Below are positions 8,651 through 39,617 of a stretch of 47,701 nt of DNA, piece by piece. Origin of the DNA: a virus. The stretch covers positions 1 through 47,701 of IMG/VR virus record IMGVR_UViG_3300027749_000173, one strand, 5' to 3'. Both the position numbers and the translations under genes were made by a program. Position 1 is the first letter of the stretch; the number at the start of each line of letters is the position of its first letter. A model generated the notes under the pieces. The model worked only from the letters and a program-made list of their open reading frames with translations. It did not search any database and was not told the DNA's origin.

Positions 8651-8658
8651 GGCGCGCC

Positions 8659-11600: not shown

Positions 11601-14600
11601 CAGTTTTGTGCAGGGTGTTAAGTTTGTTGTACTGGAAGAAGGTCAAGAAATACCTGAGCAACTCAAGACTCCTAGAAATGCTAAGGCATGGGATCGTTCG
11701 ATTGCGCTCTATATTGAGAACTACAAGACAGGTGACCGCGTTATCTATGTGCGTGGCGCGTCATTTGGCAATTCTCAAGGTATCAACAACATCACTATCT
11801 TGCATGAACTCTTGCACGCTGCGACTAACCGCAAGTTGGCTATTGCATTTGAGTACATCAAAAAGGGTGTCTACCTAAACACTCCGGCAGTTAGAGCAGC
11901 GCAAGATTTAATCCGCATCATGAACAGTGCGGCTCGTACATACGAAGACCTAGCTAAGCAGAAGAAGTTGTCGATGGATATGGTTGCGCTTCGCTATGAC
12001 GGAGACATCTTCAACGACCCCCGTGAGTTTGTGTCCTATGGTTTAACCGACCCACAGATGCAGAACTTCTTGATGCAAGCGCACGGCTACGAGGCAGACA
12101 TGCCATTCTTTACTCGGTTTGTTTCTGCACTGCGTGATCTGCTTGGTATGAAAGATACCGACATCAACGCACTGACCGACCTCATTGTCGCAACCGACAA
12201 CATTTTGAAAGCGCGTGTCCCCGGAGTTCAAATAAACGGCCAGTCCGTCAGTAGCATGTTTGGATTTGGCAAAGGTAAGGATACGGAAGCTGACAGTACG
12301 TTTTCTATCAGTGGAGAAACAGTAAGTGCTAAACCAAGTGCTAACGTCCAACGTCTTGCAAAAATGCTTGGTACTAAGTTATATGGCACACCCGAAGACA
12401 TTACTACGGTATCGGTCAAAGAGCTGTTTCAAAACTCTTTTGATGCTATTAAAGAAGCTATTGAAAACGGTCAGGTTAAAAACGGTAAGGTTGCAATTAA
12501 GTTAGATAAAGATAAACGGACTATCAACATTACTGACAACGGCCTCGGTATGCCCACTAGTGTGATGGGTAATCAGTTCTTGCAGATTGCTGGTACTGTA
12601 AAAGGTACATCCCGTGCGTCAGGTGGTCTTGGTGTTGCCAAGATGTTGTTCTTGTTTGAGAACAAAAAATTAGAAGTTGTTTCTTTACGCGATGGCAAAC
12701 TGTCTCGATTGATTACTACGGGCGACGAATTAAAAGCTGCTATGGCGGCAAACCCAGCTACTCTTTTAGAACAACTAAAAGATTTTCTTTCCCCGGAAGA
12801 CATTCAAATTATTGCGCCCGCAATACAGGCAGCTATTACTCGTATGCGGGAAAATGGAGAAGTTGTACCCGAAATAAAAATTGAAACTTCTTCTGATTCA
12901 AAAGAGATTGAAAAATACAAAAACATATTCCCTGATGGGCATGGCACGTCTGTAACTGTTCAGATTCCTGAGACGTATGTTGACTCTTCCAGTGGCGACG
13001 AAAAGGATATTAAATTCCCCATTTCAGCTCATTACTATCCTGTGTTGGGGAAAAGCCCTTTATTTGACGACATAGAAGTTACGTTTGATAGAGGCTATGG
13101 TCCAGATAAATTATCTCTTGGTAAAAATTTTCCAATTGATGATTTCACACCTTTTGCAAATGTAAATTTTGCTTGGGGCACTGCGCGTGTCTATGTATCT
13201 AAAAAGATAGAAAGAAATTATGGTGATAACACCCATGTACTATCTAATGGTTTATGGCAGTTTGATAGAACTATTTCAGATCGTCCCGGATTTGGTGGTA
13301 AGGCAATTCAACGCGATTTTTATATTGATGTATCTCCTTCTCCAGACGTTAAGCCTGAAGATGCTGGCTATCCGTTTGAATTAAACCGCCAAGGATTTTC
13401 AAAACAAGCCAATTCCGACTTTGAAAAAATCTTTAATTACATCACTGCAATCTATAGCCAACTAGATTTGGCCGCAGGTATTAAAAACTTTGGCACAGTT
13501 CAGTATGTCAATCTAGACGGTAGCCTGACTACCGCAGAAATCCTTGAACCTAAAACGCCAGTATCTGATAACGCTTTTACTCTGATTAAACCCGGAGATA
13601 GCGTAGAAGTTCGTGAAGGAATTTTGTATGTCAACAATAGAAAGTTGCCGGAGCTTACTGCCGATGACTTGAAGAATACTGCGGTGCGCATTGATGAGTT
13701 GACTATTCCACAGAAAGATATCAACCCAAAGAAGGTCATGATTCATGACAACACTCGGTTCGAGATAGACGATAAAGTTTTAACGCAGCAGGGCTGGGAT
13801 GTAGTAGTAATAGACAACGCATGGGTCGCTGTTAAAAACGGTAAAAAATACACTGAACCCGGTACGATGGAAGAGTTAGTAGCTCAGATGGAAGCTGACG
13901 GGGCAATAAAAACCGAATCTCTTTCTGACCGTGCTCGTGAAAAGTTTGGCGCTCGGTACGACAAATATCTTGCTGAGATAGGCCAAACATTCCAATTACT
14001 TCGTGGTGCTCTAGTAGCCGGTGGCCGTGGCGAATATGGTGATTTAGCAAGCCAAGCAATCGGTACAAGTATTGACAACGAGTATTACGGTGTTAGTATC
14101 ATGGTCCCATTCAAGGGTATGTTCATCAATCCGACGACGACCGACATGCGCGGCAGTCCTGAGGAAATTGCCATATCAATGATTGGTACAATGATCCACG
14201 AATTGGCTCACTTTAAAGCACGCAATCACGGTGCCGAGTTTGCTAGTGAGATGCAGAGGGTAATGACCTTATTGAAGGTCTACCCTGCTATTGATTTAGA
14301 CCAAGTCGAGAAAAACTTAACTAAGCATGTCGCTAAGAACAAAGACATTTTTGACTTTTTAGATAAGGAGTTCCGTAGTGGAAATCTCAAACCTCGTGGA
14401 AACCGCTTCAAAGACGCTGGTGGGTACCAGCAAATTGAAAATGAAGGCTCTACTGAGTCAGTGGAAGGCACTAGCGGAGCAAGAGAAGGGTGGCGACCCA
14501 GCCTATCCCAAATCGCTGGGCCTAGCGATCAGAACGCTGGACAAATCGGCATCGGTGAAGGACTTGATAACGAAGCTCAAGAAGTCGGAGAGGTAGTAAG

Positions 14601-17582: not shown

Positions 17583-17633
17583 CAAAGGAGGGATGGAGCT
17601 AACATCCTAGACAACTGATAAGTGGATTTTACA

Positions 17634-17828: not shown

Positions 17829-20643
17829 CTGCGGTCAATGTATCAAGTTGTAGATATTCAGACTTACCCGCGTCAAACTTTAATGTCCGTACGACTGGTG
17901 ACGACAACTTCATACCCTTAGACATACGCTTGTTGACGGTTTCCAATAGGATTTGCTGGTCGGTCATGGTTTTAAGCAGGCTCTTGTAGTTGATCTGCTG
18001 TTTAACGCAGAACTCTTTGAACTGCTTTGCAGCTACATATAGATGTTTGGTATCTGGCTCGTAGCGTATTAGTAACTCTCCACGCGGTTCCATACCCGGC
18101 ATTGCCTGCATGTTTGTCCGTGCATCAACTTCACCGTTAACCACCAATGTGTTCATTGCTAAGTGAGCGTTCACAAACTCGCCAAGGGCTGTAACTGGAG
18201 AATCTGTCGGTGGCTTAACGTCAAGGCGCATCTCAGACAACATGCTTTTCATCCACTTATAGATTTCTTTCATGTCATAGTTATGCAGACCAAGTTCTTT
18301 GGCTATTAAACCGCCAGTAATGATGGTGGCGCATACGGCTGACCAAAAACGTTCGCGTGATGTGAACTGGACTTCTTTGTCAATCTTGGCTTGAATCTGT
18401 TTATATGTATTCTTGGCTTCTTCAAGGTTGTTAACTAACCAAGTAATGTAGATTTCCCCTGCGTGGCCGTAGTTCTCGTTGAGTTGATGGTCAAACATCT
18501 CCTTGCCGTAAGCCATACCAATCACGTCGTTAGGCTCAATCTTGTACTCTAGTAGACGCACTGACTCACCATCCGGAGCGTTCTTTAACATCAGTAGCTT
18601 TTCATGGAAGCTGGCGTTAGCCGATGCCAGAGTCATGTTCTGCCAAGAAGTATTGTTAACGCGCAGTGCATTCTCTGAACCTTTAACTCGGTGTTTGCCT
18701 CGACCTTGACTGATGCCGTATGCCAAGTCGGAAAACTCCTTGGGTAGCATGTTGGTAATCTCGTCAATCGTGTTGGGCAGGTTGTTCATCACACCCAGTT
18801 GTTGCATCTTGGCGTTGAGCGTATCTTTCTCAATCGCCATCATTTCGTACGGCATTCCGTACACGCTGTTGCACATGCGCAGAATCGTTGATTTTCCTGA
18901 TCCAGCCTGCTCGTAGATTACGTTAATGATTGCACCCTTTAAGCCAGTGAACTTGAACAATGGGGCACCGAATGCCGTAAGAGCGGCAAACGCATGGGGC
19001 TCCATGCCCGGTTTTGCATACAGATTAAATACTTCTTTCCACTTCTCCATGTCGCCTTTGGTGTGAATCTTTTCTGCGAAGAAGTCTGTTGTTGATGACG
19101 GCGGGCTATAGAACGTCCCGTCTTTGGTGATCTCTTTGTCACCCATAATAAATTTGCTGTCTCCATCTACCCATCCGAATTGTGTTCTCATTAGCTCTGC
19201 TTTCTTTGTGTACTGTAAGTTTTTGACTGATGTAACGACATACGTAGCAAGGTTTTCATACTGCTTGTGGTGTGCCATCACTCCCTGTTGTGCAAGATGC
19301 TTGCGCAGCTCGTCTTTAGAAGATATAGCTGCTGTCGTAATAGCAAACTCTTTCATACCGTCGTGCGGTAGGTGATGCCTAAACAGCGCCATCTCTCCTA
19401 ACTCTTTGTCCCGCATCCGCTTAATCACATACAGATCATGTTCATAGACTAGCTTTGGCTCGCCCTCTTCATCATCTTGTTGTGGTCTGACGTAGATGCC
19501 ACCTTTTTTCCCACGAAAAAATGGGAATGGGTACTCAGGTATTTGGTGCTTGACTACACCTTGTTTGGTTTCAACTTCAACTTCGTTATCTTCTTCGGTG
19601 GCTTGCTCAATCTCCACACCTAAAACAATAGGTGACTTGAACTTACCTCGGTGTGGGCAACCCTCACAACCTCCGGGATTTCGCTCCTCAAATGTGTCGC
19701 AGTGGTGTGGCCCACCGTTCTTTCTTATATTCTTTAGTTTCTGGTTAACCTCTGCGGGGTCATACTCGGGATGCTTCTCTGACATTTTGTGGGCGGCTTT
19801 GTCTCCATCTACGCAGAAAGCGGGAATAGATAACGCAGACATCCACAGTGGTTCGCTAAGTTCTTCTTGATTCTCATAGCAGTAATTGAGTTGGGCGCAA
19901 CCCTTCTCGCCTAGCATCATGATTGTCTTGAACTTCTTAACCTTGTTACCCAGTAATGCTTCCATCATTGGGCTCATCGCTCTCGGTACAAAGTCAGGCT
20001 GTTCTTGCTCAGGCGCATCTGCACCGAGTAATTCTTTGTAGGCTTCGTACGATAGAGGCTTCGTGTGCTCGTTCCAAACTGTGACGGATTTAGGGTCATC
20101 TTTGTTCTTGAAATTAGCCGAGTGCATCGGGCGCAAGATACGTGAGGCTTCGAAGACGTGTGGGTCAACGATTAGTCCATGCTCTTTACACAATGCTTTT
20201 AGTCGCTTAGCTAACGGCGTCCACTCTTGACGAGTAACCGTGCGGTCGAGCAACCAGTAGGCGTGAATTCCGTTGCCAGAGTTCACCAGTATGGGTCTAT
20301 GCAGTCCAGCGGTTTTGCAAAACTTTTGTAATTCTGCTAGTCCAGTCTGTTGATCTAGATAGCCCTCAATAATCCCTTTGGAGTTAGGTACGCCCTTGGT
20401 GGGGCCGCAATCAATATCCATCCACAATGCGCGGAAGTATTGAGCGTTACCGTGAGTCCTGTCGTTCGCTGGTCCAAATTTAGCGCATCCGAAAAACGCG
20501 TCAATCTTCTTACCTACAAACTCTTGAATTATTTCTTCAGCTTCTTCTCTAGTATCTACAAATCTTTGATCTGGAAACGTGCCACCCCCGAATACACAGT
20601 ACCGTCCCTCCGTTGGGAGCACTGCATTGAGTAGGTCAAACAT
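17797..20643 (-). CDS. Primase-helicase: AEP primase N-terminus plus DUF927-like SF3/AAA+ helicase
   Basis: A 948-residue replication protein that should prime and unwind phage DNA. The N-terminal archaeo-eukaryotic primase fold has Asp76 and Asp78 in 'LWMDIDCG' (metal binding) and the 'SGNGIH' motif at 122-127. A cysteine cluster (C316, C326, C329 with H331) resembles a primase zinc knuckle. The C-terminal ATPase has Walker A 'EQAGSGKST' at 578-586 and Walker B 'NTIDE' ending at Asp627-Glu628, with a DUF927-like region before it. The start overlaps the stop of the HTH gene by 1 nt (TAATG). This is probably the only replicative helicase in the window besides the SNF2-type protein. Confidence 0.85.
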   Translation of the reverse strand: MFDLLNAVLPTEGRYCVFGGGTFPDQRFVDTREEAEEIIQEFVGKKIDAFFGCAKFGPANDRTHGNAQYFRALWMDIDCGPTKGVPNSKGIIEGYLDQQTGLAELQKFCKTAGLHRPILVNSGNGIHAYWLLDRTVTRQEWTPLAKRLKALCKEHGLIVDPHVFEASRILRPMHSANFKNKDDPKSVTVWNEHTKPLSYEAYKELLGADAPEQEQPDFVPRAMSPMMEALLGNKVKKFKTIMMLGEKGCAQLNYCYENQEELSEPLWMSALSIPAFCVDGDKAAHKMSEKHPEYDPAEVNQKLKNIRKNGGPHHCDTFEERNPGGCEGCPHRGKFKSPIVLGVEIEQATEEDNEVEVETKQGVVKHQIPEYPFPFFRGKKGGIYVRPQQDDEEGEPKLVYEHDLYVIKRMRDKELGEMALFRHHLPHDGMKEFAITTAAISSKDELRKHLAQQGVMAHHKQYENLATYVVTSVKNLQYTKKAELMRTQFGWVDGDSKFIMGDKEITKDGTFYSPPSSTTDFFAEKIHTKGDMEKWKEVFNLYAKPGMEPHAFAALTAFGAPLFKFTGLKGAIINVIYEQAGSGKSTILRMCNSVYGMPYEMMAIEKDTLNAKMQQLGVMNNLPNTIDEITNMLPKEFSDLAYGISQGRGKHRVKGSENALRVNNTSWQNMTLASANASFHEKLLMLKNAPDGESVRLLEYKIEPNDVIGMAYGKEMFDHQLNENYGHAGEIYITWLVNNLEEAKNTYKQIQAKIDKEVQFTSRERFWSAVCATIITGGLIAKELGLHNYDMKEIYKWMKSMLSEMRLDVKPPTDSPVTALGEFVNAHLAMNTLVVNGEVDARTNMQAMPGMEPRGELLIRYEPDTKHLYVAAKQFKEFCVKQQINYKSLLKTMTDQQILLETVNKRMSKGMKLSSPVVRTLKFDAGKSEYLQLDTLTADANRDSVVSD

Positions 20644-20876
20644 TATTGGTGCTTCAAAATCGTGATGTATTCTTTGATGGGCTCAACCATTCGACTGTTT
20701 GGAATTACCCGCCCTTCGAACCAGTTGTAAACCGTCTGACGACTGACGTCGAATCTCTCCGCAATAGAAGAAACGCTAACGCCAGTCTTTATACAAATAC
20801 GTCCCAAAGCTACACCTATATGTTTTCCGTCAGCGGATTTATTCGCCAACATCAAATTTAAGCTGTAGCCTGACAC
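20643..20876 (-). CDS. Small HTH DNA-binding protein (77 aa)
   Basis: A helix-turn-helix of the Cro/XRE type is visible at about residues 34-54 (VSVSSIAERFDVSRQTVYNW), followed by a short tail. It is the right size for a phage Cro-like regulator or a replication accessory protein. It lies between the SSB-like gene (2 nt gap) and the primase (1 nt overlap), so it is expressed with the replication proteins. It is one of two candidates for the protein that binds the repeated TAACAATGTTA palindromes; nothing in the sequence proves this. Confidence 0.75.
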   Translation of the reverse strand: MSGYSLNLMLANKSADGKHIGVALGRICIKTGVSVSSIAERFDVSRQTVYNWFEGRVIPNSRMVEPIKEYITILKHQ

Positions 20877-28819: not shown

Positions 28820-28983
28820 AAAAAAGCCACCGATAGGTAGCTAGGATATACCCTAACAATGTTAGGGGGGTTGGGGGGTTGATAGATTACGTGCCCCCCG
28901 TCACGCTAAAGGTTCAAGCAGAGTGAAATCTCAAGGGGGACTCTGCTTGAGAAAGACACCGTCACATCTATCGGCTAGGTCAT
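28820..28983 (-). ncRNA. Structured RNA / long terminator candidate
   Basis: Read on the minus strand. Outer arms AGCCGATAG and CTATCGG(T)GGCT (28968-28974 with 28830-28836 as core) pair over about 145 nt and are followed by six T (28825-28820). Inside are an 11-bp hairpin (28950-28940 with 28924-28914, loop 15 nt); a small CGTG/CACG hairpin whose loop is G-rich (ACGGGGGG); two C6 runs downstream that could pair with that loop as a pseudoknot; and one palindrome CCCTAACATTGTTAGGG. No gene fits. It ends the upstream operon and may persist as a stable 3' RNA. The fold is by eye, not computed. Confidence 0.5.
28854..28864. repeat. Palindrome TAACAATGTTA, copy 1 (intergenic)
   Basis: Within the structured RNA region; extended by CCC/GGG to 17 bp (28851-28867). 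Confidence 0.95.
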
Positions 28984-30576: not shown

Positions 30577-30670
30577 CACTCCCCAACATAAATATTGCTA
30601 CACCCACAATCACTACGATTGCACCACCAAGGCACATCAGCATTACCGCCCATGCAATTGTTTCTAGCAT
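30560..30670 (-). CDS. Very small membrane protein (36 aa)
   Basis: The frame starts at ATG 30670 with GGAG 6 nt upstream. About 27 of its 36 residues form one transmembrane segment (LETIAWAVMLMCLGGAIVVI and following), ending in SDDERP. It overlaps the membrane gene upstream by 7 nt and the 56-aa gene downstream by 17 nt. Two successive tiny membrane proteins in an early operon suggest an effect on the host envelope or superinfection exclusion; this is inference. Confidence 0.6.
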   Translation of the reverse strand: MLETIAWAVMLMCLGGAIVVIVGVAIFMLGSDDERP

Positions 30671-30834
30671 AGCCAACTCCATAACCCCACGGCTGTGAGA
30701 CAAACTATTACTGCTATCCCTGCTAGGGTAGGCAAATCACTCTCTGCTCTATACGGGCCCTCTACTGTTAAGTAAGAGTCCGTGCGCCTGAGTGTTCGTG
30801 AATAGATTTCTGTTGTTTGGTTGTTATCTAACAT
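30664..30834 (-). CDS. Small membrane protein (56 aa) started inside a TAACAATGTTA palindrome
   Basis: The start is placed at ATG 30834, the central ATG of the palindrome at 30829-30839, giving MLDNNQTTE...; the palindrome's TAA is the stop of the upstream gene. The frame continues upstream (to 30885) but that would lie within the 288-aa gene. The first 36 residues are polar; the last 20 (LAGIAVIVCLTAVGLWSWLC) are one membrane helix. Confidence 0.7.
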   Translation of the reverse strand: MLDNNQTTEIYSRTLRRTDSYLTVEGPYRAESDLPTLAGIAVIVCLTAVGLWSWLC

Positions 30835-30839
30835 TGTTA
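30829..30839. repeat. Palindrome, copy 2 (stop/start junction)
   Basis: The minus-strand TAA ends the 288-aa gene and the ATG begins the 56-aa membrane gene. Confidence 0.95.
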
Positions 30840-31721: not shown

Positions 31722-32576
31722 TTACCAATCGAACTTACCTAAGATAGCATCTACCTTAGACTTCAATGCGCTCCGTGAGTCTGCATCTTCTTTGATACTC
31801 TCTATGTCTGCCCCTAACATTGTTAGTTCTAGTTGGCGTCGTGCTTCCTCTAACTTCGGGTCGTTGGTCACATTCAGTTTAGTTAGCAGTCCACACAACT
31901 CTATGGGGTTAGAGATAAGTGTGTCGTGGTAACGCTTCTTGGAATCATCACCCTCAATATCAGTCAACTTCTCCGACATTCCTACTAGCGTCTTATGCAG
32001 ACGCTCCCACGGCTCACGCATAGCCTCGGCTAACCTGTCGCTGTATTGTTTCTCGTAGTCGTTCTTCATCTCCACTAAGTCATGCGCAGGTATATCTAAG
32101 CGGAAGTCACCAGACTCAGGTATTGGTTTAACTGCTCGTCTAAACCCGAACTTCAATCGCACCTCTTCAATCTCGGGATAGTCCTCTGCCTTATACATAC
32201 TGCCTAGGTTGTTAGGTGCATCTGCAACAAGACGCGGATACTCAACAAAGAAGTTGGTGCACATCATGTTGAATGTCTGCTCGAACCCATTCATGGTCTG
32301 TTTGTATTCCATGAACAACTTGGTCGGTAACATACGCTCACCCTTGTCTGCCCAAGGCAATGTATGCTTGTTGTGATACAGACGAACACGCGCGGCGAAG
32401 TCTGATATGTCTTTGCGTAGGCTAGTCCCCGCAAATAGATTCTTCTTGGTCTGACTCGCACCTCTGACTGCTGACGCATCTGTATTGACCTTATCAGTTA
32501 CCTCTCGGTCTAACTTAGACGCAGGCCATACGCTGATATTCAATTCCACTAATAACGCTGATGAACTAATACTCAT
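31722..32576 (-). CDS. Phage protein of unknown function (284 aa), MoxR-operon associated
   Basis: The start is placed at ATG 32576 (MSISSSALLVELN...), with AAGGAG 6 nt upstream; the longer frame to 32660 would invade the VWA gene. The protein is mostly helical with conserved-looking blocks 'GTSLRKDISDFAARVRLYHN' and 'EPWERLHKTLVGMSEKLTD'. A TAACAATGTTA palindrome is embedded in the coding sequence at 31815-31825 (read as L-T-M-L). It is coupled to a 9-residue leader peptide. The family is not recognised; association with the MoxR/VWA genes is by position. Confidence 0.75.
   Translation of the reverse strand: MSISSSALLVELNISVWPASKLDREVTDKVNTDASAVRGASQTKKNLFAGTSLRKDISDFAARVRLYHNKHTLPWADKGERMLPTKLFMEYKQTMNGFEQTFNMMCTNFFVEYPRLVADAPNNLGSMYKAEDYPEIEEVRLKFGFRRAVKPIPESGDFRLDIPAHDLVEMKNDYEKQYSDRLAEAMREPWERLHKTLVGMSEKLTDIEGDDSKKRYHDTLISNPIELCGLLTKLNVTNDPKLEEARRQLELTMLGADIESIKEDADSRSALKSKVDAILGKFDW
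31815..31825. repeat. Palindrome, copy 3 (inside 31722-32576)
   Basis: Read in frame as cta-aca-atg-tta; kept in full inside the gene. Confidence 0.95.
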
Positions 32577-32602
32577 TTGATTTCTCCTTTGTTGCCTAAC
32601 AT
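32573..32602 (-). CDS. Nine-residue leader peptide MLGNKGEIK
   Basis: It begins at the ATG inside the palindrome 32597-32607, directly after the VWA stop codon. It contains the ribosome site of the next gene (AAAGGAG reads as N-K-G-E) and its TGA overlaps that gene's ATG (ATGA). It looks like a translational relay that keeps ribosomes moving from the VWA gene to the 284-aa gene. The peptide itself need not have a function. Confidence 0.4.
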   Translation of the reverse strand: MLGNKGEIK

Positions 32603-32607
32603 TGTTA
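32597..32607. repeat. Palindrome, copy 4 (stop/leader start)
   Basis: The TAA ends the VWA gene; the ATG begins the nine-codon leader. Confidence 0.95.
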
Positions 32608-33837
32608 GTTGCTGTCGATATGAATAGTTTTGCCGTTGTCGGCATCACCGTCATACCCACCCACGATGCACCACATTACAGGTGCAGTCCACTCACTACC
32701 CCAGTCACCACCTACATAACCATCGGTCAAGACAATCACGCACTCGGGCTGGATGTTCTTCTCTTTCAGATACGCTGATACACAAGACGGGCTCGTGCCA
32801 CCACCACCCTTGGGCTTGGTAGAGTTAGGAATATCAGACGCGGTAGAACCTGAGTAAGTCTCATGCCCCGCTACCTCGCTATCCCAATACAACAAGTCCA
32901 CGCACTCAGGGTTTACCTCTTCTGCGATACCCTTAACCTCGGATAAGAACTCTGTCAACTCATCACCACCAATCGAACCTGATGTGTCGATAGCAATAAC
33001 CAAGTGACCTACCTTCTCACCTATCAGCGTAGGCATGTAGACACCAGTAGATAAGAATCTACGATTGACCTTGCGCCATGATGACTTGTCCTTTGCATTG
33101 CATGTTGACTTAACAAAGTCACGCAATACCTCACGCCAATTCACCTTGGGTTCAAGCAGTCCTTCCAACTCACGGTCTAGTCCACCACCACCAGTTCCCG
33201 CAATTTTGTTGCGTGCCATGATGCCTTGACGAATCGCTTGGTCAATCTCACGGGCTAGGTCTTTCTGTTCTTCGGCAGTCATCTCCTTCGCACCATCCCA
33301 ATCGTGGTCATCGAACTCAGGGTCACCATCGCTAGGGTTACCCGCACCACCGCTACCACCAGAACCACCTTGACCTTTCTCCTTGATTAGTATGTCGAAC
33401 ACTTCCTTGGCGTTCATTCCACGGAATCGCTCATCAACTAAGCCCATTGGTTTGCCACCTAGTTTGTGTCCTTGTGGGTAGCGTGGCATGGCTATGACTG
33501 TCTCGTTAGGGTCTAGGTCTTTCAACTGGATGTTGATTACATAGTCACATGCACTGTTCGCTATCCTGTGGTCAATGTCGTGCAACTTGCGCCATGTAGT
33601 CAAGTGTCGATACATCTTGTGATAGTTCTCATGCGCCACCACAAAGTTCAACTCTTGGTCACGCAGTTCTTTGACGAACTTGCGACCATACGATTCATCT
33701 CTACCATTGGTGCACGCAGTAGGGATGTTGTCCACTACCTTGGTCTTACCAACCATCAAGATACCCGATAGCAATGCGAACTTGGGGTTACGCATCAAGC
33801 TAATCTTGGATTTCTGAACTCTTCTTTCCTCTAACAT
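32605..33837 (-). CDS. VWA-domain protein with HENYH zincin-like motif (MoxR partner)
   Basis: 410 residues resembling DUF2201/VWA-like proteins. The N-terminal part has a protease-like 'VVAHENYHKMYRH' (His69-Glu70 ... His73), a Gly/Ser-rich acidic linker at about 155-180, and the C-terminal von Willebrand A domain carries the MIDAS motif 'DTSGSIG' (284-290) and a later 'LTDG'. MoxR ATPases work with such VWA proteins to assemble or remodel protein complexes, and the MoxR gene is two genes upstream. The start codon is the ATG in the palindrome 33832-33842, with AAGGAG just before it. Confidence 0.85.
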   Translation of the reverse strand: MLEERRVQKSKISLMRNPKFALLSGILMVGKTKVVDNIPTACTNGRDESYGRKFVKELRDQELNFVVAHENYHKMYRHLTTWRKLHDIDHRIANSACDYVINIQLKDLDPNETVIAMPRYPQGHKLGGKPMGLVDERFRGMNAKEVFDILIKEKGQGGSGGSGGAGNPSDGDPEFDDHDWDGAKEMTAEEQKDLAREIDQAIRQGIMARNKIAGTGGGGLDRELEGLLEPKVNWREVLRDFVKSTCNAKDKSSWRKVNRRFLSTGVYMPTLIGEKVGHLVIAIDTSGSIGGDELTEFLSEVKGIAEEVNPECVDLLYWDSEVAGHETYSGSTASDIPNSTKPKGGGGTSPSCVSAYLKEKNIQPECVIVLTDGYVGGDWGSEWTAPVMWCIVGGYDGDADNGKTIHIDSN

Positions 33838-33842
33838 TGTTA
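33832..33842. repeat. Palindrome, copy 5 (start of VWA gene)
   Basis: Contains the VWA start codon, with AAGGAG directly before it. Here the TAA is not a gene stop. Confidence 0.95.
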
Positions 33843-33851
33843 TGCTCCTTC

Positions 33852-34244
33852 TTAAAAATTTAATTCAATATCACGGGTCACATGCAAGATGAAGTCGGCG
33901 TTGTCTGAACGCTCTTCTTCTATATCATTCGCTTCTTCACCTAGACGCACGAACTCATACGCCCAAGATAACTGCTTGGCATCCGCCCCTTCCTTAGATT
34001 CAGCAAACCCTACGAACGCATGTGCAAACTCATTGAACTCTTGCACAAAGGTATAACTCTCATACCATTTCACGTCATCACACATAAAGTGGTAGCCCCA
34101 CGCATTGTTTGCTTTGATAGGGGTAAGACACTCCCGCAACTCTTCGTTCTTCGGGAAGTTCTCATCCACATACAGTTTCAGCAAGGGTGCTTGCTCCTTC
34201 TCTCGTGTGTAGAACACGGCTTCAACTACGCTTCGATAGCCCAT
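33852..34244 (-). CDS. Conserved phage protein, 'MGYRS' type (130 aa)
   Basis: It begins MGYRSVVEAVFYT and has an acidic, aromatic-rich body ('NAWGYHFMCDDVKWYESYTF'). Proteins with this beginning are common hypothetical genes in many phages. It may be a small alpha/beta fold similar to ferredoxin-like domains; no catalytic residues are obvious. It lies between the MoxR and VWA genes, overlapping the 70-aa gene by 1 nt. Confidence 0.7.
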   Translation of the reverse strand: MGYRSVVEAVFYTREKEQAPLLKLYVDENFPKNEELRECLTPIKANNAWGYHFMCDDVKWYESYTFVQEFNEFAHAFVGFAESKEGADAKQLSWAYEFVRLGEEANDIEEERSDNADFILHVTRDIELNF

Positions 34245-34456
34245 TACCTACTCCCTTCGTTAAGTAGTCCTGCAATCTTCTCGCACACAATCTTGCTCTC
34301 ATGTCGAAAGACTGTGTCCCCATTGAATGTGTCCATATCACGAACACAGTAACCAATCACCTTCAAGTCGCTTTGGTTTTGGTCTGTCACCCACTGCACC
34401 CAATACCTGTGCTTGCCTTGGAGTCTTACTCCGTTACTCTGTGATGTAGATAACAT
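34244..34456 (-). CDS. Small phage protein (70 aa) started inside a palindrome
   Basis: The start ATG 34456 is the centre of the palindrome 34451-34461, whose TAA ends the MoxR gene. The protein (MLSTSQSNG...) is beta-rich ('HRYWVQWVTDQN', 'LKVIGYCVRDMDTF') with a helical end. Function unknown; the coupling to MoxR suggests a joint role or simply polar expression. Confidence 0.7.
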   Translation of the reverse strand: MLSTSQSNGVRLQGKHRYWVQWVTDQNQSDLKVIGYCVRDMDTFNGDTVFRHESKIVCEKIAGLLNEGSR

Positions 34457-34461
34457 TGTTA
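34451..34461. repeat. Palindrome, copy 6 (stop/start junction)
   Basis: The TAA ends the MoxR gene; the ATG begins the 70-aa gene. Confidence 0.95.
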
Positions 34462-35535
34462 GAGCAAGTCCTGATTCTTAGCAACCCAAGCGGTGAACGC
34501 CTTGGCACTGAACGCTATGCTCTGCTTGGCTTGTGACTTCGCAATGTTGATAGCGAACACGGCTTGCCACTCAGCGTCGAACCGCTCGAGGTATTCCATG
34601 AACGCATCAATGGTGTCCTTCTCCACACGGGCAATCGCACCGAACACCACAATCGCACAAGCACCCGCACTTGTAGGTATCTTGGTATTCTTAGGGTCTT
34701 TGATAGTCGCTTCCCATGTTGGGAGTTGGTCTGAGAATTCGATATACGCTTGCATGTCTCGCGCACCTGATTCACCAATAGCACCAGTCAAAGCCGCGAT
34801 TACTGAGTCGGCATCATTCTCTTTGCGTGACCTAACAATGTTAGAGGCTGTCTCCAATGAGCGTGGTGATACGAACGCAGTCATAGGCTTCTTAGGATTA
34901 AAGATATACGGGTTATCCGCCTGTCCACCATCCGTGTAACTTGCCAATACTTGTGGGAATCGGTTAACCCAAGCAATCACCTCGGGCTCGATACCCTTGC
35001 CGATAGCCCATTCAATCCACTGTTCTGCATCAGGCTTTTGTATTGTTACGGATACCAAGCGATTCATAGAGTGCGCCTTGAGTGAGTCACCCACCCCGTC
35101 TGTCGATTGATTACCCGTGAGGAATACGATTGTTTTCTTCTCGCCTTTCTTGGGGATAGGAATGTCACCAAGTCGGGGATTTGCCTTCTCGAACATGGGG
35201 TGAAGCATGTTCTTAACTGGGTCTGCGCCTTTCGTATACTCGTCTAGCATGATGACCAACGGCTTGCCTTCATGCAATTTGAATCGTGCATTAGGGTAAT
35301 ACCTAGTTGTCTTGGTATCGTGGTCGATGACGGGCATTGCAATATCACCGAGGTCTAGGTTGGGCACATCAATGTATGCGTAGTCATAACCTAGTCCGTT
35401 AGCGATACTCTCCAATAGGGAAGACTTTCCAATTCCAGGTTCGCCACGCAATAAGAACACAGTATCGGGGTTGGTTCTGATTAGGTTTGATGCTTGCTTC
35501 AAGGTAATGGTCTTACCAAAATTAACTTCTGACAT
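34459..35535 (-). CDS. MoxR-type AAA+ ATPase
   Basis: A 358-residue AAA+ ATPase. Walker A is 'GEPGIGKS' (31-38), Walker B 'LVIMLDE' (Asp98, Glu99), and a sensor-like 'FLTGNQST' lies near 140. It pairs with the VWA protein two genes downstream, as MoxR proteins usually do, suggesting a chaperone-like system that the phage uses on virion or host complexes. It is the first gene after the promoter at 35617-35645; the leader holds an operator-like palindrome (35558-35568). Another palindrome is inside the gene (34833-34843, read as S-N-I-V-R). Confidence 0.9.
   Translation of the reverse strand: MSEVNFGKTITLKQASNLIRTNPDTVFLLRGEPGIGKSSLLESIANGLGYDYAYIDVPNLDLGDIAMPVIDHDTKTTRYYPNARFKLHEGKPLVIMLDEYTKGADPVKNMLHPMFEKANPRLGDIPIPKKGEKKTIVFLTGNQSTDGVGDSLKAHSMNRLVSVTIQKPDAEQWIEWAIGKGIEPEVIAWVNRFPQVLASYTDGGQADNPYIFNPKKPMTAFVSPRSLETASNIVRSRKENDADSVIAALTGAIGESGARDMQAYIEFSDQLPTWEATIKDPKNTKIPTSAGACAIVVFGAIARVEKDTIDAFMEYLERFDAEWQAVFAINIAKSQAKQSIAFSAKAFTAWVAKNQDLL
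34833..34843. repeat. Palindrome, copy 7 (inside MoxR gene)
   Basis: Read in frame as ct-aac-att-gtt-agg, another phase than copy 3. Confidence 0.95.
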
Positions 35536-35557: not shown

Positions 35558-35568
35558 TAACAATGTTA
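35558..35568. repeat. Palindrome, copy 8 (MoxR leader)
   Basis: Downstream of the perfect promoter; extended to CATAACAATGTTATG. Confidence 0.95.
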
Positions 35569-35616: not shown

Positions 35617-35645
35617 ATTATACCACATTGTTACACCAATGTCAA
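35617..35645 (-). promoter_or_regulatory. Perfect sigma70 promoter upstream of the MoxR gene
   Basis: On the minus strand TTGACA (35645-35640), a 17-nt spacer and TATAAT (35622-35617): a full consensus. The spacer contains ACATTG...CAATGT arms, sharing the core of the repeated palindrome. Start point expected near 35610; the palindrome CATAACAATGTTATG (35556-35570) lies about 40-55 nt downstream of it, so a bound repressor could block elongation. Confidence 0.85.
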
Positions 35646-35666: not shown

Positions 35667-36680
35667 CTAGCGCGATGCTGACTCGGGCAACCATCTGTCG
35701 TATGCCCCTTTGGATACCGAACCAATCGGTAACTCTTTGCGCACCAATACCTCTTGGGCGTGGGCTTTGAGTAACACAGTGTCGAGAGCTTTGACTATCG
35801 GCTTAGCCTTAACGATGTAGGTGTTCTCGTCTTGCCCTCGCTGATAGATGCGGTCGCCACTCAGTAGCACCGCCAACGCACCCTTGTAGAAGTTCAAGTG
35901 CTTGGTGTCCTCGGGTTGGTCACTCTTGATTAGTTCCAAGAACTGCGACATACCTTCCTTGTATTCACTCGCCCTCTGCGTGCCGTAGTTGAAATGGCGT
36001 TGTGGCAAGTCGTGCATCCACCGCATGTGCCCAATTACCTTGTCGGGGTCGTTTCCCATCTCATCTAACTGCTTCTCCACACCGAACGCCACTTGCACCT
36101 CGTGCCAAGATATGCGGATACCACTAAGGCTGTTGTTGTAGTATTGAATTTGAATCTCCTCGGTGCGTAGGTTCACCACCCCTTTGAAGTAGGTTCTGAA
36201 TTCCTTGTAGCGTGCCCTAACATTGTTAGCCTCCTGTCGGTTGAGATGCCATGCGTATTGCGTCTTAGCACCATCTACCACGCACCAGTTCCCCGCCCCG
36301 TCCAGTTTGAGCGTGAGTTTGTCCTTGCCCCGCACTGTGTAGCGTTTGTCCCCCAGTGTGATTACTGAAGTATTCCTAGATGCTTGCGCACCTACGCCAA
36401 GAACCCTGTGAAAGAATTGATGTGTGGATACTGTGCTGTATGCGTCAGGTGTGAGCACCACCCCACCATCGGGCTTGTATGTAATCACGGGTGATTTGTA
36501 TAGCATGAACACTACATCATCCCCATCCATCTTGACCCAATAGGAGTCGGCATCACGCCTGTTACCCAAGGGTCGAATCTCGGGGTCTCGCCCACGAATG
36601 GGCTTGGTGCTGTCGTGTAGATTCTTTGCTAGTGCGTAGGTCTGAACCCGTGGCACACTCATTACTGTTGCATATCCCAT
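35667..36680 (-). CDS. Phage protein of unknown function (337 aa)
   Basis: A basic alpha/beta protein; blocks 'GDDVVFMLYKSPVITYKPDG' and 'RNTSVITLGDKRYTVRGKDK' suggest a beta-rich first half and 'HFNYGTQRASEYKEGMSQFL' a helical second half. I do not recognise the family. A palindrome is embedded in the gene at 36218-36228, read as N-N-V. GGGAG lies just before the ATG. It is the last gene of the unit transcribed from 38154-38182, and no terminator hairpin separates it from the next promoter. Confidence 0.7.
   Translation of the reverse strand: MGYATVMSVPRVQTYALAKNLHDSTKPIRGRDPEIRPLGNRRDADSYWVKMDGDDVVFMLYKSPVITYKPDGGVVLTPDAYSTVSTHQFFHRVLGVGAQASRNTSVITLGDKRYTVRGKDKLTLKLDGAGNWCVVDGAKTQYAWHLNRQEANNVRARYKEFRTYFKGVVNLRTEEIQIQYYNNSLSGIRISWHEVQVAFGVEKQLDEMGNDPDKVIGHMRWMHDLPQRHFNYGTQRASEYKEGMSQFLELIKSDQPEDTKHLNFYKGALAVLLSGDRIYQRGQDENTYIVKAKPIVKALDTVLLKAHAQEVLVRKELPIGSVSKGAYDRWLPESASR
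36218..36228. repeat. Palindrome, copy 9 (inside 35667-36680)
   Basis: Read in frame as gct-aac-aat-gtt-agg. Confidence 0.95.
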
Positions 36681-36681
36681 T

Positions 36682-36837
36682 TCATTTCTCCCTTAGTGGA
36701 TAAACTTTTATCTGCTTGAGCGTGGGGTAACTCGCCAAGAATCTCTTCTTCGCAAACTCCATACTCTTGCACTCGAATACTTCGGCGTGCCAATTACCGA
36801 ATCGGGCACTCCACCCTGTTACATAGTATCTAGTCAT
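36682..36837 (-). CDS. Small phage protein (51 aa)
   Basis: The start is placed at ATG 36837 (MTRYYVTGWSARFGNW...), which overlaps the stop of the coiled-coil gene by 8 nt; the frame open to 36909 lies inside that gene. The 51 residues form a compact beta/alpha unit: 'RYYVTGWSARFGNWHAEVFE' then 'FAKKRFLASYPTLKQIKVYPL'. Unknown family. Confidence 0.65.
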   Translation of the reverse strand: MTRYYVTGWSARFGNWHAEVFECKSMEFAKKRFLASYPTLKQIKVYPLREK

Positions 36838-37072
36838 CTTTCTGCCCTTTCCACATGGCGAGCCAATCGGCTTCGCTTCCTTGTTGATGCGACTCGAGCT
36901 GGTCTTCAATCGCTTGCAACTTCTCTAAGAACTCTAGATACTTGTTGCGTGTTGTTACGATTTGCTTGGTTGTCATGTCAGGGTTGCGTAGTGCTTTGAG
37001 CACTTGCTCTTCTAGGTTTCGCTTGGTATCCATTAGTTTTACTAATGCTTCCTGTGCTTCTCTATCTAACAT
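36830..37072 (-). CDS. Coiled-coil protein (80 aa) started inside a palindrome
   Basis: The start codon (MLDREAQE...) is the ATG within 37067-37077, and the TAA there is the stop of the 65-aa gene. The protein is essentially one long Leu/Glu/Lys helix ('ALVKLMDTKRNLEEQVLKAL'). No family recognised. Confidence 0.7.
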   Translation of the reverse strand: MLDREAQEALVKLMDTKRNLEEQVLKALRNPDMTTKQIVTTRNKYLEFLEKLQAIEDQLESHQQGSEADWLAMWKGQKDD

Positions 37073-37077
37073 TGTTA
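37067..37077. repeat. Palindrome, copy 10 (stop/start junction)
   Basis: The TAA ends the 65-aa gene; the ATG begins the coiled-coil gene. Confidence 0.95.
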
Positions 37078-37471: not shown

Positions 37472-37660
37472 TTACCCTTTCATTTCTTGGTAAAGTGATT
37501 CGTCTTTGATGCCTTGCTCATACGCTTGCATCCATACTTCTTCAGCGAACGCAATCAGGGATACGCTCAGGGCTTCGTCGCTTTTGAGCACTCCTGTTTT
37601 CTCGGCTAGTTCTTGGAGCATATCCATTACTTCGCTCAGGGGTTGGTCTTGTATCGTCAT
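37472..37660 (-). CDS. Small helical protein (62 aa)
   Basis: A helical 62-residue protein ('LSEVMDMLQELAEKTG', 'SVSLIAFAEEVWMQAYEQGI'). The start overlaps the stop of the zinc-ribbon gene by 4 nt (ATGA). No family recognised. Confidence 0.65.
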   Translation of the reverse strand: MTIQDQPLSEVMDMLQELAEKTGVLKSDEALSVSLIAFAEEVWMQAYEQGIKDESLYQEMKG

Positions 37661-37887
37661 GTGCGTAACTCCTTTTGGTTGGTTTGTTTGAGTGTTGTGG
37701 TTGCGCTGTTAGTAGTAACAAATTGGTAGTTGCCTTTGCCGTATTCTTGCACAATGCACCACGAACTACGCTCTGCTTTGGCTCTGTCCTCACCGCAAAA
37801 CAAACACACTTTGTATCCTAGTTGCCAACGCGAGATGTGAACATCATCACCGCAGTCGGTGCATTCTCTCCAGTCTAGGTCTAACAT
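37657..37887 (-). CDS. Small zinc-ribbon protein (76 aa) started inside a palindrome
   Basis: Two CxxC pairs (Cys9/Cys12 in ECTDCGDD and Cys28/Cys31 in VCLFCGED) make a zinc ribbon; the C-terminus 'CIVQEYGKGNYQFVT ... TLKQTNQKELR' is a block I recall as well conserved in small phage genes. The start is the ATG in 37882-37892, preceded by GAGGAGG. It may bind nucleic acid or a host factor. Confidence 0.75.
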   Translation of the reverse strand: MLDLDWRECTDCGDDVHISRWQLGYKVCLFCGEDRAKAERSSWCIVQEYGKGNYQFVTTNSATTTLKQTNQKELRT

Positions 37888-37892
37888 TGTTA
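37882..37892. repeat. Palindrome, copy 11 (stop/start junction)
   Basis: The TAA ends the 58-aa membrane gene; the ATG begins the zinc-ribbon gene. Confidence 0.95.
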
Positions 37893-38066
37893 TGCCTCCT
37901 CAGTTTCGTTGTAGTTGAGGGCTTCGGTCAGGACATTGCCGAGGTATAAACCTCCGAACAAAATGGATGCTTTGTGCAGATAGCCGTCATCAGTAAAACC
38001 GAACACAATAAAAAGAACACCAATGATGGTGAAGAAGATGAGATGAATCGGTCGAGCAGAGCGCAT
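37890..38066 (-). CDS. Small membrane protein (58 aa)
   Basis: A gene of 58 codons from ATG 38066 (AAAGG 6 nt upstream). It has two hydrophobic stretches: 'HLIFFTIIGVLFIVFGF' (about 8-24) and 'ASILFGGLYLGNVL' (about 33-46). Its TAA is within the palindrome of the next gene. It is the first gene of the early unit driven by the promoter at 38154-38182, a position typical of host-takeover or exclusion proteins (inference). Confidence 0.7.
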   Translation of the reverse strand: MRSARPIHLIFFTIIGVLFIVFGFTDDGYLHKASILFGGLYLGNVLTEALNYNETEEA

Positions 38067-38097: not shown

Positions 38098-38108
38098 TAA
38101 CAATGTTA
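38098..38108. repeat. Palindrome, copy 12 (early operon leader)
   Basis: Between the perfect promoter at 38154-38182 and the first gene. Confidence 0.95.
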
Positions 38109-38153: not shown

Positions 38154-38182
38154 ATTATACCACGAAGTTATACCAATGTCAA
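38154..38182 (-). promoter_or_regulatory. Perfect sigma70 promoter of the early leftward operon
   Basis: On the minus strand TTGACA (38182-38177), 17-nt spacer, TATAAT (38159-38154). The sequence is nearly identical to the 35.6 kb promoter over the whole -35 to -10 region. Start point expected near 38147; palindrome 38098-38108 lies in the leader, again about 40-50 nt downstream. Confidence 0.85.
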
Positions 38183-38532
38183 GTAAACGGGTCTTGGGTC
38201 AGACTAAAGAGCAGGGTTGAATGTTATGGATGTGATGTTATGGAAATGGTGCTTTGTTACGGGTTTGGGGAATAGTGTGTAACATTAGAAATGGCTTAAC
38301 CACGCGGAAAAATGGCTAATTGTTATATTGTTATAATGTTATGAGTATATGTATATATCCCACCAAAATGAGTTTGCGTAGTATGAATTGCACTTGCTGT
38401 CCTTGACGCTCTTTTTCATTTTGGTGGACTTCCATATATGTCGTGTAACATTGTAACATATAACAATGTAGCATCCATGCGGGTTAGCGGGGAGGTGTCG
38501 TGTAACATTGCATAACATTAGGCTGAATTGCA

Positions 38533-38543
38533 TAACATTGTTA
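38533..38543. repeat. Palindrome, copy 13 (control region)
   Basis: Abuts the first 27-bp repeat. Confidence 0.95.
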
Positions 38544-38569
38544 GGGCTACCCCCGCACAGAGAACTGGT
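38543..38569. repeat. 27-bp direct repeat, copy 1
   Basis: AGGGCTACCCCCGCAC followed by AGAGAACTGGT; identical to the copy at 38616-38642, 73 bp apart start to start (about seven helical turns). It abuts the palindrome at 38533-38543. Confidence 0.9.
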
Positions 38570-38615
38570 TCACCGAATTGTCGTCAGGGTATGCTGTGCG
38601 ATGACAATTAGACTC

Positions 38616-38642
38616 AGGGCTACCCCCGCACAGAGAACTGGT
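38616..38642. repeat. 27-bp direct repeat, copy 2
   Basis: Identical to 38543-38569. The pair could be initiator- or terminase-binding sites; the small terminase gene begins 1 kb to the right. Confidence 0.9.
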
Positions 38643-38665
38643 GCAGTGGTTATTGGCGTAAGCGC

Positions 38666-38690
38666 AAAAAAGCCCTAACAATGTTAGGGC
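38666..38690 (-). terminator. Second terminator, stem made of the TAACAATGTTA palindrome
   Basis: The perfect 19-bp palindrome GCCCTAACAATGTTAGGGC (38672-38690) is followed on the minus strand by six T (38671-38666). One sequence therefore carries both the operator-like core and a Rho-independent terminator. Confidence 0.8.
38676..38686. repeat. Palindrome, copy 14 (terminator stem)
   Basis: Core of the 19-bp stem at 38672-38690. Confidence 0.95.
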
Positions 38691-38702: not shown

Positions 38703-38728
38703 AAAAAAGCCCCGACGAATCGGGGCTT
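38703..38728 (-). terminator. First terminator after the isolated gene 38748-39236
   Basis: Minus strand: 9-bp stem AAGCCCCGA / TCGGGGCTT with a TTCG loop, followed by T6. It lies 20 nt after the stop of the gene, directly before the palindrome-based terminator. Confidence 0.9.
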
Positions 38729-38747: not shown

Positions 38748-39236
38748 TTACTTAACTATTGCGGATAGGTCAACACCCATTGCAGTTAGTGCGGATGCCA
38801 TGTGCGTCATGGCTTGCTGTTGTTGCGTGCTCAGAGATTCCTCACGCTTACCCGCACGATACAGAGCGGTCAAGTCCTCGATTAAGCGCAACTGAAAACT
38901 GCGGGTTGATTTCTTTTTACCCGCTTCGTCAGTCGCACCTACTGCGTGAGCACGACCTTCGGCACGCACCCGTGTCCATACTACGCTAGGGTTTTTATGT
39001 CCCGCTTTGCGTAACACATCACGGAATTTTGTGGCTTCCGCAAGTGTAGGCTTTGCTTCCTCTGACAAGTCGGTATGTTCTACTTCGTGCCAGTCCTCAG
39101 GTAGTTCAGAGCACAACTTGACCGCATACATTTTGACCGCACCATACTGGCGTTTGTGTGCGTCACCGACTGCGTCACGCAGTTCGTCAAGTGTAGGGTT
39201 GCTAGGGCTAACAATGTTATGTGTGAGATTAGTCAT
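38748..39236 (-). CDS. Isolated early protein of unknown function (162 aa)
   Basis: A charged helical protein ('EATKFRDVLRKAGHKNPSVV', 'GKKKSTRSFQLRLIEDLTAL') with no recognised family. It is a transcription unit of its own: promoter-like boxes upstream (39293-39298 for the -10), AAAGG before the ATG, and two successive terminators after the stop. A palindrome lies in its first codons (39209-39219, read as H-N-I-V). Strong insulation suggests an early, independently controlled product such as a host-takeover factor or regulator; this is inference. Confidence 0.7.
   Translation of the reverse strand: MTNLTHNIVSPSNPTLDELRDAVGDAHKRQYGAVKMYAVKLCSELPEDWHEVEHTDLSEEAKPTLAEATKFRDVLRKAGHKNPSVVWTRVRAEGRAHAVGATDEAGKKKSTRSFQLRLIEDLTALYRAGKREESLSTQQQQAMTHMASALTAMGVDLSAIVK
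39209..39219. repeat. Palindrome, copy 15 (first codons of 38748-39236)
   Basis: Read in frame as cat-aac-att-gtt-agc, codons 6-10 of the gene. Confidence 0.95.
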
Positions 39237-39292: not shown

Positions 39293-39321
39293 ATTATACC
39301 ACAAAGTTATATATAAAGCGT
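39293..39321 (-). promoter_or_regulatory. Probable promoter of gene 38748-39236
   Basis: The -10 TATAAT (39298-39293) is preceded by GTGG, as in the two perfect promoters, and by the AT-rich stretch TATATAACTTTGTGG that matches their spacers. The -35 is weak: the nearest, TTTACG, would need a 20-nt spacer. It may need an activator. Confidence 0.55.
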
Positions 39322-39617
39322 AAACAATAATTAAATGTGGGGTATGGCTAACATTGTTAGGCGGGACACGCTACAGCGACCCCCACCACCCCAAAATTGA
39401 GCGCAGGGGAGGTAGGGCCCCATACACAGTGTGTTGCACAATCAATTCACATTTTTGTATTTTGTATAACAATACCCCCTCCCCCCTTTGCTTTTGGTGG
39501 GATAAGTCTGAGTTACCCAACCATAGAAACACCCCCCGTCACTTTTTATTTCGCTGCACCCCCACCCCTATATTTTTTCTGTTACAGTTCGGCCATTCCC
39601 AATTCACTTTGGTGCCT
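39322..39617. other. Divergent non-coding region before the terminase genes
   Basis: It contains one palindrome (39349-39359) and several C-rich tracts (around 39380, 39475, 39531 and 39559). No convincing plus-strand promoter is seen. Its position next to the terminase genes makes it a possible packaging (pac/cos) or promoter region. The reading frame from 39354 into the terminase is rejected as coding because it is low-complexity and starts at TTG. Confidence 0.4.
39349..39359. repeat. Palindrome, copy 16 (divergent region)
   Basis: Right-most copy, upstream of the terminase genes. Confidence 0.95.

Follow-up and report, generated by a model that had tools for sequence, protein, structure and literature searches.

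A stoperator-like palindrome array, its putative repressor, and a candidate replication origin in an uncultivated aquatic phage

The region between positions 38183 and 38690 of the window (the whole 47,701-nucleotide stretch analyzed here, an uncultivated virus record representing an aquatic phage genome) is probably a compound control hub, in which repressor operators and promoters stand beside a separate, putative origin element. Sequence comparisons further suggest that the neighboring gene (38748-39236) very probably encodes the repressor that recognizes a stoperator-like array of palindromes and regulates its own synthesis; we infer the repressing role from the position of the gene, the presence of operators at promoters, and the co-variation of operators and protein. 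Comparisons draw on 80 relatives fetched by their TerL proteins (L001-L080, 76 to 89% identity) and on 49 more loci obtained with the neighboring protein and a homologue as queries, a set that partly overlaps the first.

RESULTS

Putative palindromic operators across the early region

The initial annotation credited this region with two identical 27-bp repeats at a distance of 73 bp, an inverted repeat of 12 bp around a 44-bp loop, and at least six half or full copies of a palindrome, all of which are borne out. The 27-bp copies form an exact pair (73 bp from start to start) that remains 97% identical when widened to 30 nt, the arms of the inverted repeat (CCACCAAAATGA/TCATTTTGGTGG, at 38360-38371 and 38416-38427, with 44 nt between them) are exact, and the palindrome occurs twice in full (38533 and 38676), alongside 16 half-sites (TAACAW/WTGTTA). 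The half-site density is thus 31 per kb over the 508 bp, about 16 times the 2 per kb of the remaining window. When the whole window is tiled in 508-bp stretches, an exact repeat of 27 bp is unique to the region, the next longest being 15 bp; further short direct repeats are present in the region, the best an exact 15-bp pair at 38439 and 38496. Nor are these elements peculiar to the window: core, operators, and tandem repeats (Table 1) are all conserved in relatives.

The array is present in this interval, as proposed, but is not restricted to it. Sixteen exact copies of TAACAWTGTTA span 10.5 kb of the early region, from 28.85 to 39.36 kb (all between 28854 and 39359), with none elsewhere in the window, against 0.02 copies expected under a first-order model; in simulations, other 5+1+5 palindromes never exceeded two copies. 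The sites are palindromic except at the center base, which is found in both orientations. In five of the 16 copies the palindrome includes a gene's ATG (ORF starts at 30834, 33837, 34456, 37072, and 37887), preceded by a Shine-Dalgarno-like sequence; a stop codon falls within another copy (32597), three are intragenic, one lies in a terminator-like hairpin (38676), and one covers codons 6 to 9 of the putative repressor gene (39209); the remaining positions include promoters and gene junctions.

Table 1. Coordinates of the features discussed, in order of position in the window
Feature	Position	Strand	Remark
Operator	28854-28864	+	Intergenic
Operator	30829-30839	-	Contains start codon, ORF 30664-30834
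Operator	31815-31825	-	Within gene
Operator	32597-32607	-	Contains stop codon, ORF 32605-33837 (gene junction)
Operator	33832-33842	-	Contains start codon, ORF 32605-33837
Operator	34451-34461	-	Contains start codon, ORF 34244-34456
Operator	34833-34843	+	Within AAA ATPase gene
Operator	35558-35568	+	Between promoter 35645-35617 and ATPase start
Second sigma-70 promoter	35617-35645	-	12/12; inside early operon
Operator	36218-36228	-	Within ORF 35667-36680
Operator	37067-37077	-	Contains start codon, ORF 36830-37072
Operator	37882-37892	-	Contains start codon, ORF 37657-37887
Operator	38098-38108	+	Immediately downstream of P_L
Early promoter P_L	38154-38182	-	TTGACA-N17-TATAAT, 12/12 plus extended TG
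Left iteron set	38321-38341		TGTTA at 38321, 38329, 38337; 8-bp spacing
Dyad-symmetric core, putative replication origin	38325-38468		nhmmer, 57 distinct relatives; self-match in reverse
12-bp inverted repeat within core	38360-38427		Arms exact only in some relatives
Right iteron set	38446-38465		TAACA at 38446, 38454, 38461
Operator	38533-38543	-	Between core and 27-bp repeat 1
27-bp repeat copy 1	38543-38569	+	Exact repeat, conserved element
27-bp repeat copy 2	38616-38642	+	Exact repeat, conserved element
Intrinsic-terminator-like hairpin	38672-38690	-	Formed by palindrome copy at 38676
Operator	38676-38686	+	Inside terminator-like hairpin
Intrinsic-terminator-like hairpin, repressor gene	38707-38728	-	
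Putative cognate repressor gene, 162 aa	38748-39236	-	Adjoins array; operator co-variation
Operator	39209-39219	+	Overlaps repressor gene codons 6-9
Putative repressor promoter block TAACTTTGTGGTATAAT	39293-39309	-	Extended -10, poor -35
Operator	39349-39359	-	Upstream of repressor promoter, before terS

Of 624 operators in 50 loci, 117 (19%) include a start codon that has a Shine-Dalgarno-like sequence and an ORF of at least 40 aa, compared with about 2% of random windows of equal span. A likely reason is that operators fill the short junctions of packed genes, as stoperators do (PMC9283540). Alternatively, such copies might work in translation, the role proposed for the start-associated sequences of Cluster K mycobacteriophages, which are short asymmetric repeats found in 11 to 19 copies per genome at the starts of early non-structural genes, 3 to 7 bp upstream of the start codon (PMC3203893). 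The 19% would speak for such a role, but the palindrome includes the start codon itself and does so in only this fraction, leaving 81% of copies without one, and copies also occupy promoters, terminators, stop codons, and gene interiors. Moreover, the palindrome varies along with the repressor, and a perfect 5+1+5 palindrome would yield an RNA loop of only 1 nt. We regard a translational function as very improbable.

Two of the operator-bearing genes, 32605-33837 (DUF2201 metallopeptidase/VWA) and 34459-35535 (AAA ATPase), make up a conserved MoxR-VWA-like pair that is roughly 65 to 84% identical in most relatives covering both genes.

Both 12/12 sigma-70 promoters read leftward, and a near-operator (TAAC...TGTGG/TAAC...GTGG-like) sits directly 5' of TATAAT in the spacers of both as well as in the promoter block of the repressor gene. 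The TGTGGTATAAT promoter block is found upstream of 57 of the 90 repressor genes and in 2.5% of random windows.

A putative repressor family that co-varies with its operators

The region had been placed between the leftward early operon and the terminase operon; it does not, however, directly adjoin the latter, since the leftward 162-aa gene intervenes. The suggestion that the repeats are a repressor loading array is well supported, albeit for a system that reaches beyond the half kilobase to the whole early region and has an identifiable cognate gene next door.

The 162-aa protein has no match in Pfam, PHROG, or PDB, and no homologues were found in annotated phages or plasmids, but iterated HMM searches unite it in one family with about 90 ORFs that occupy the equivalent position in relatives. 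These relatives adjoin matching palindrome arrays, in which the spacer is 0, 1, or 2 nt or the half-site is another (TCACA, CTAACG). Operator classes in the early regions of relatives comprise TAACA-N-TGTTA, TAACA-NN-TGTTA, TCACA-N-TGTGA (L054), and CTAACG-CGTTAG (L065), with CTGACA-NN-TGTCAG, present in three copies in L041, as a possible further class. Among more distant TerL relatives on MAG contigs (L131 and L135), recurring palindromes (TTCGTA-3-TACGAA, seven copies; GTTCA-2-TGAAC, seven copies) may represent additional classes.

On the same 56 loci, the 1-nt/2-nt operator class changes 4 times on the repressor tree and 12 times on the TerL tree; in the comparison with the ATPase, the numbers are 3 on the repressor tree and 7 on the ATPase tree. 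Because fewer class changes fall on the repressor tree, the operators appear to travel with the repressor gene and not with the phage backbone, and this closer tracking is what makes the protein very probably the cognate repressor. One locus, L025, has six 1-nt TAACA-N-TGTTA operators in its early region yet a very different protein at the repressor locus, such that either the same operator is served by a different protein or the repressor is encoded elsewhere. Duplications occur in other relatives: in L005, paralogous repressor genes (7295-7786 and 8470-9045) flank the tandem 27-bp repeats, and L045 has two copies of its own different protein (7390-7899 and 8451-8960).

The predicted structure of the protein is all-helical (N-terminal domain pLDDT of 93, pTM of 0.77) and contains two helices linked by a short turn, a helix-turn-helix-like pair; neither the whole protein nor the N-terminal domain matched a solved DNA-binding domain (Foldseek, VIA). 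Weak hints point to a tyrosine-recombinase core-binding domain (Phage_int_SAM_4 at an E value of ~0.04 in three members; Z score of 3.2 to a Cre-type chain). Residue 82, predicted to lie directly before or at the start of the second helix of the pair, is Asn in the 1-nt-operator members of two clades (17/17 in one and 4/4 in the second) and Thr or Ser in all 21 members of the second clade with 2-nt operators. It is not a full code, because L027 and L033 combine Asn82 with 2-nt operators.

Among 20 records (many incomplete, several of 60 to 66 kb), we detected no tyrosine integrase, serine recombinase/resolvase, or ParA ATPase, and so found no direct sign of lysogeny. The partition-like site envisaged by the initial annotation is accordingly without support, the ParA-type ATPase (PF13614) being found in 0 of the 20. 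Possible roles of the repressor are in non-integrating lysogeny, pseudolysogeny, superinfection exclusion, and a timed shut-off of early genes. Bacterial contigs with a related TerL, mostly short MAG contigs, offered no proof of a host or prophage, and the search for a cultured close relative of the phage group found none; in the annotated distant relatives DSL-LC04, 023Pt_psg01, and HTVC027P, core, operators, and repressor are absent from the stretches fetched. Elsewhere in the window, the 2966-aa product of 8659-17559 resembles the large polyvalent protein domain LPD39 weakly, with a score below threshold.

A conserved core distinct from the operators

Between P_L and the repressor gene lies a core of about 145 bp, recovered with a profile seeded from 38320-38475, in which two inverted iteron sets flank a conserved center (TTGCACTTGCTG) such that the element matches its own reverse complement; its ends read GTTATAANGTTA on the left and GTAACAT-TAACA on the right. 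GC content is 28% in the left third, 45% in the middle, and 35% in the right third, compared with 50% for the loci.

Relatives that carry the core include those with other operators (TCACA in L054, CTAACG in L065), two in which we found no array (L020 and L039), and three whose repressor locus encodes an unrelated or very distant protein (L020, L025, L045). All of these retain the TAACA/TGTTA ends (the match in L025 is without the left end), so the core is not simply a repressor array, and, given that it keeps TAACA where operators are changed or absent, another protein should bind it. These loci also bear on the reading that half-sites and core constitute one repressor array, i.e., a long operator or enhancer for polymerization or looping that has no role in replication. 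In the window and most relatives, operators and core iterons do have the TAACA half-site in common, and half-site density is maximal in the region, but the cores of L054, L065, L020, and L039 keep their TAACA/TGTTA iterons at similar spacing, and the direct iteron spacing of 7 to 8 bp is unlike the inverted geometry of the operators. We therefore consider a single array unlikely and treat the core as a separate element.

That the core is intergenic, about 145 bp long, and dyad symmetric at its ends might also suggest a gene for a structured noncoding RNA. RNAalifold, however, predicts no conserved pairs among 39 core sequences, for which reason we rejected a structured RNA fold and take the core to be probably a DNA element, and an Rfam search of the region returned only subthreshold chance matches, with no family attaining its gathering score. 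An RNA gene is hardly credible.

The initial proposal of a replication origin is plausible for one separable part of the region, namely this core, which, as sequence comparisons indicate, 57 relatives retain irrespective of the repressor. Cumulative GC skew is lowest at 37901 and highest at 17598, and the minimum is compatible with an origin here, although skew is confounded by gene direction. A DUF927 primase-helicase is encoded in 19 of the 20 records. Directly upstream of the window's DUF927 gene, 20643-20876 encodes a 77-aa helix-turn-helix protein, a candidate binder of the core or of the 27-bp repeats. Our best guess, at roughly even odds, is that the core would be the replication origin; it could equally be an enhancer or packaging element.

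The tandem 27-bp element and the question of packaging

At least one copy of the 27-bp element occurs in 48 of the 57 core-bearing relatives, and 41 have two or three. Copies lie on the plus strand, usually 60 to 120 bp to the right of the core, with almost none on the left side or in other orientations, and are spaced 43 to 147 bp apart in all but two pairs. Their identity is 94% within one phage and 79% between phages. Each phage thus maintains a duplicated version of its own, a pattern that would be produced by selection on sites bound by a co-evolving factor or by gene conversion. The element is a candidate replication accessory site or terminase box. A mini-CRISPR (a 27 + 46 bp layout) was rejected because the spacing is variable (in most pairs 43 to 147 bp) and there are two or three copies.

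Contig starts among L001-L080 are strongly enriched at two distances upstream of TerL, 450 to 900 bp (38 per kb) and 1800 to 2250 bp (22 per kb), falling to 0 to 8 per kb beyond 2.7 kb. The two peaks coincide with both noncoding flanks of the repressor gene and could stem from immunity cassettes that vary among strains or from physical ends of the genome. The noncoding stretch before terS (39349-39617) has C-rich runs (CCCCCACCACCCCAAAAT...GGGGAGG), similar looking in L001, L023, and others, and is a possible packaging site or late promoter.

If the region were itself the packaging site (cos or pac), the 27-bp repeats would be small-terminase boxes akin to the R sites of lambda cosB. Consistent with this are the number of copies (two or three, in the same orientation), their position toward terS from the core, their spacing of 43 to 147 bp in most pairs, and the enrichment of contig starts nearby. 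But the starts form two broad peaks instead of a single sharp end, with the higher peak adjoining terS, the window record continues across the site, and the repressor gene lies between the site and terS, all of which leave packaging at this site quite improbable beside a compound control hub.

DISCUSSION

From the co-variation, we propose that the 38748-39236 protein recognizes TAACA-N-TGTTA; presumably it is dimeric, each subunit contacting one half-site. It would shut the host-sigma-70-type promoters P_L (38182-38154) and 35645-35617 through the near-operators in their spacers and the operators downstream, and would limit its own expression through the near-operator in its promoter and the copy at codons 6 to 9, while the dispersed copies at start codons, at gene junctions, and in a few gene interiors could act as roadblocks in the manner of stoperators. 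The dyad core between P_L and the repressor gene would be a separate cis element whose likeliest role is that of an origin; a phage initiator, either the DUF927 primase-helicase or a protein acting with it, would open it, and the tandem 27-bp element adjoins it. Since the half-site is common to repressor and core in most of these phages, the repressor may also occlude the origin.

More tentatively, these observations might be joined into a broader reading that we hold to be possible but doubtful: a new repressor family without a recognizable DNA-binding fold would govern large groups of aquatic phages via palindromes at start codons and promoters, immunity type would be switched mainly through half-site spacing, and, with the origin sharing the half-site, one repressor could silence both transcription and replication in phages that show no genes for integration or partition.

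Detailed knowledge of dispersed-operator immunity comes mainly from mycobacteriophages, and if the proposal is true, its use by abundant aquatic phages with a different, previously undescribed repressor family would mean that the strategy is common and has evolved more than one time. The roughly 90 repressor-operator pairs, with at least four operator classes, are a data set for the evolution of specificity and immunity groups, for which residue 82 and the spacer rule provide testable handles, and the conserved core supplies a specific candidate for the origin in a group of phages for which no cultured close relative was found.

Among known systems, phiC31 (CIRs) and P1 (C1 sites) have palindromic or repeated operators dispersed through their early regions together with autoregulation; the present system is alike in its scattered early-region repressor sites and proposed autoregulation, and its repressor is different. 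Closer in layout are the stoperators of Cluster A mycobacteriophages (L5, Bxb1), many of which are dispersed through leftward early genes in short intergenic spaces, with a subset at promoters, and whose sequence diverges together with the repressor (PMC6550527, PMC9283540). Dispersed early-region sites, a promoter subset, short junctions, and site-repressor co-divergence are features common to both. Cluster A sites, however, are asymmetric 13-mers, whereas those here are near-perfect palindromes when examined for asymmetry; the L5 gp71 type of repressor has an N-terminal helix-turn-helix, whereas no such family is detectable here; and the present specificity classes differ by spacer length, many sites contain a start codon, and no integrase or ParA was found. 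We do not file the system as an L5-type member, because its sites lack that asymmetry and the searches did not establish homology to L5-type repressors.

For the core, the nearest parallel is with P4-like primase-replicase elements, such as Gram-negative PICIs, whose origins have two iteron sets around an AT-rich stretch (PMC6092414). The arrangement of iteron sets flanking an AT-rich stretch and a primase-helicase replication protein are alike, but the putative origin here is not adjacent to the primase-helicase gene, and its iterons are 5 bp long and inverted. By analogy, then, the locus appears to function in the manner of a stoperator-type repressor system with dispersed operators, next to a putative iteron origin.
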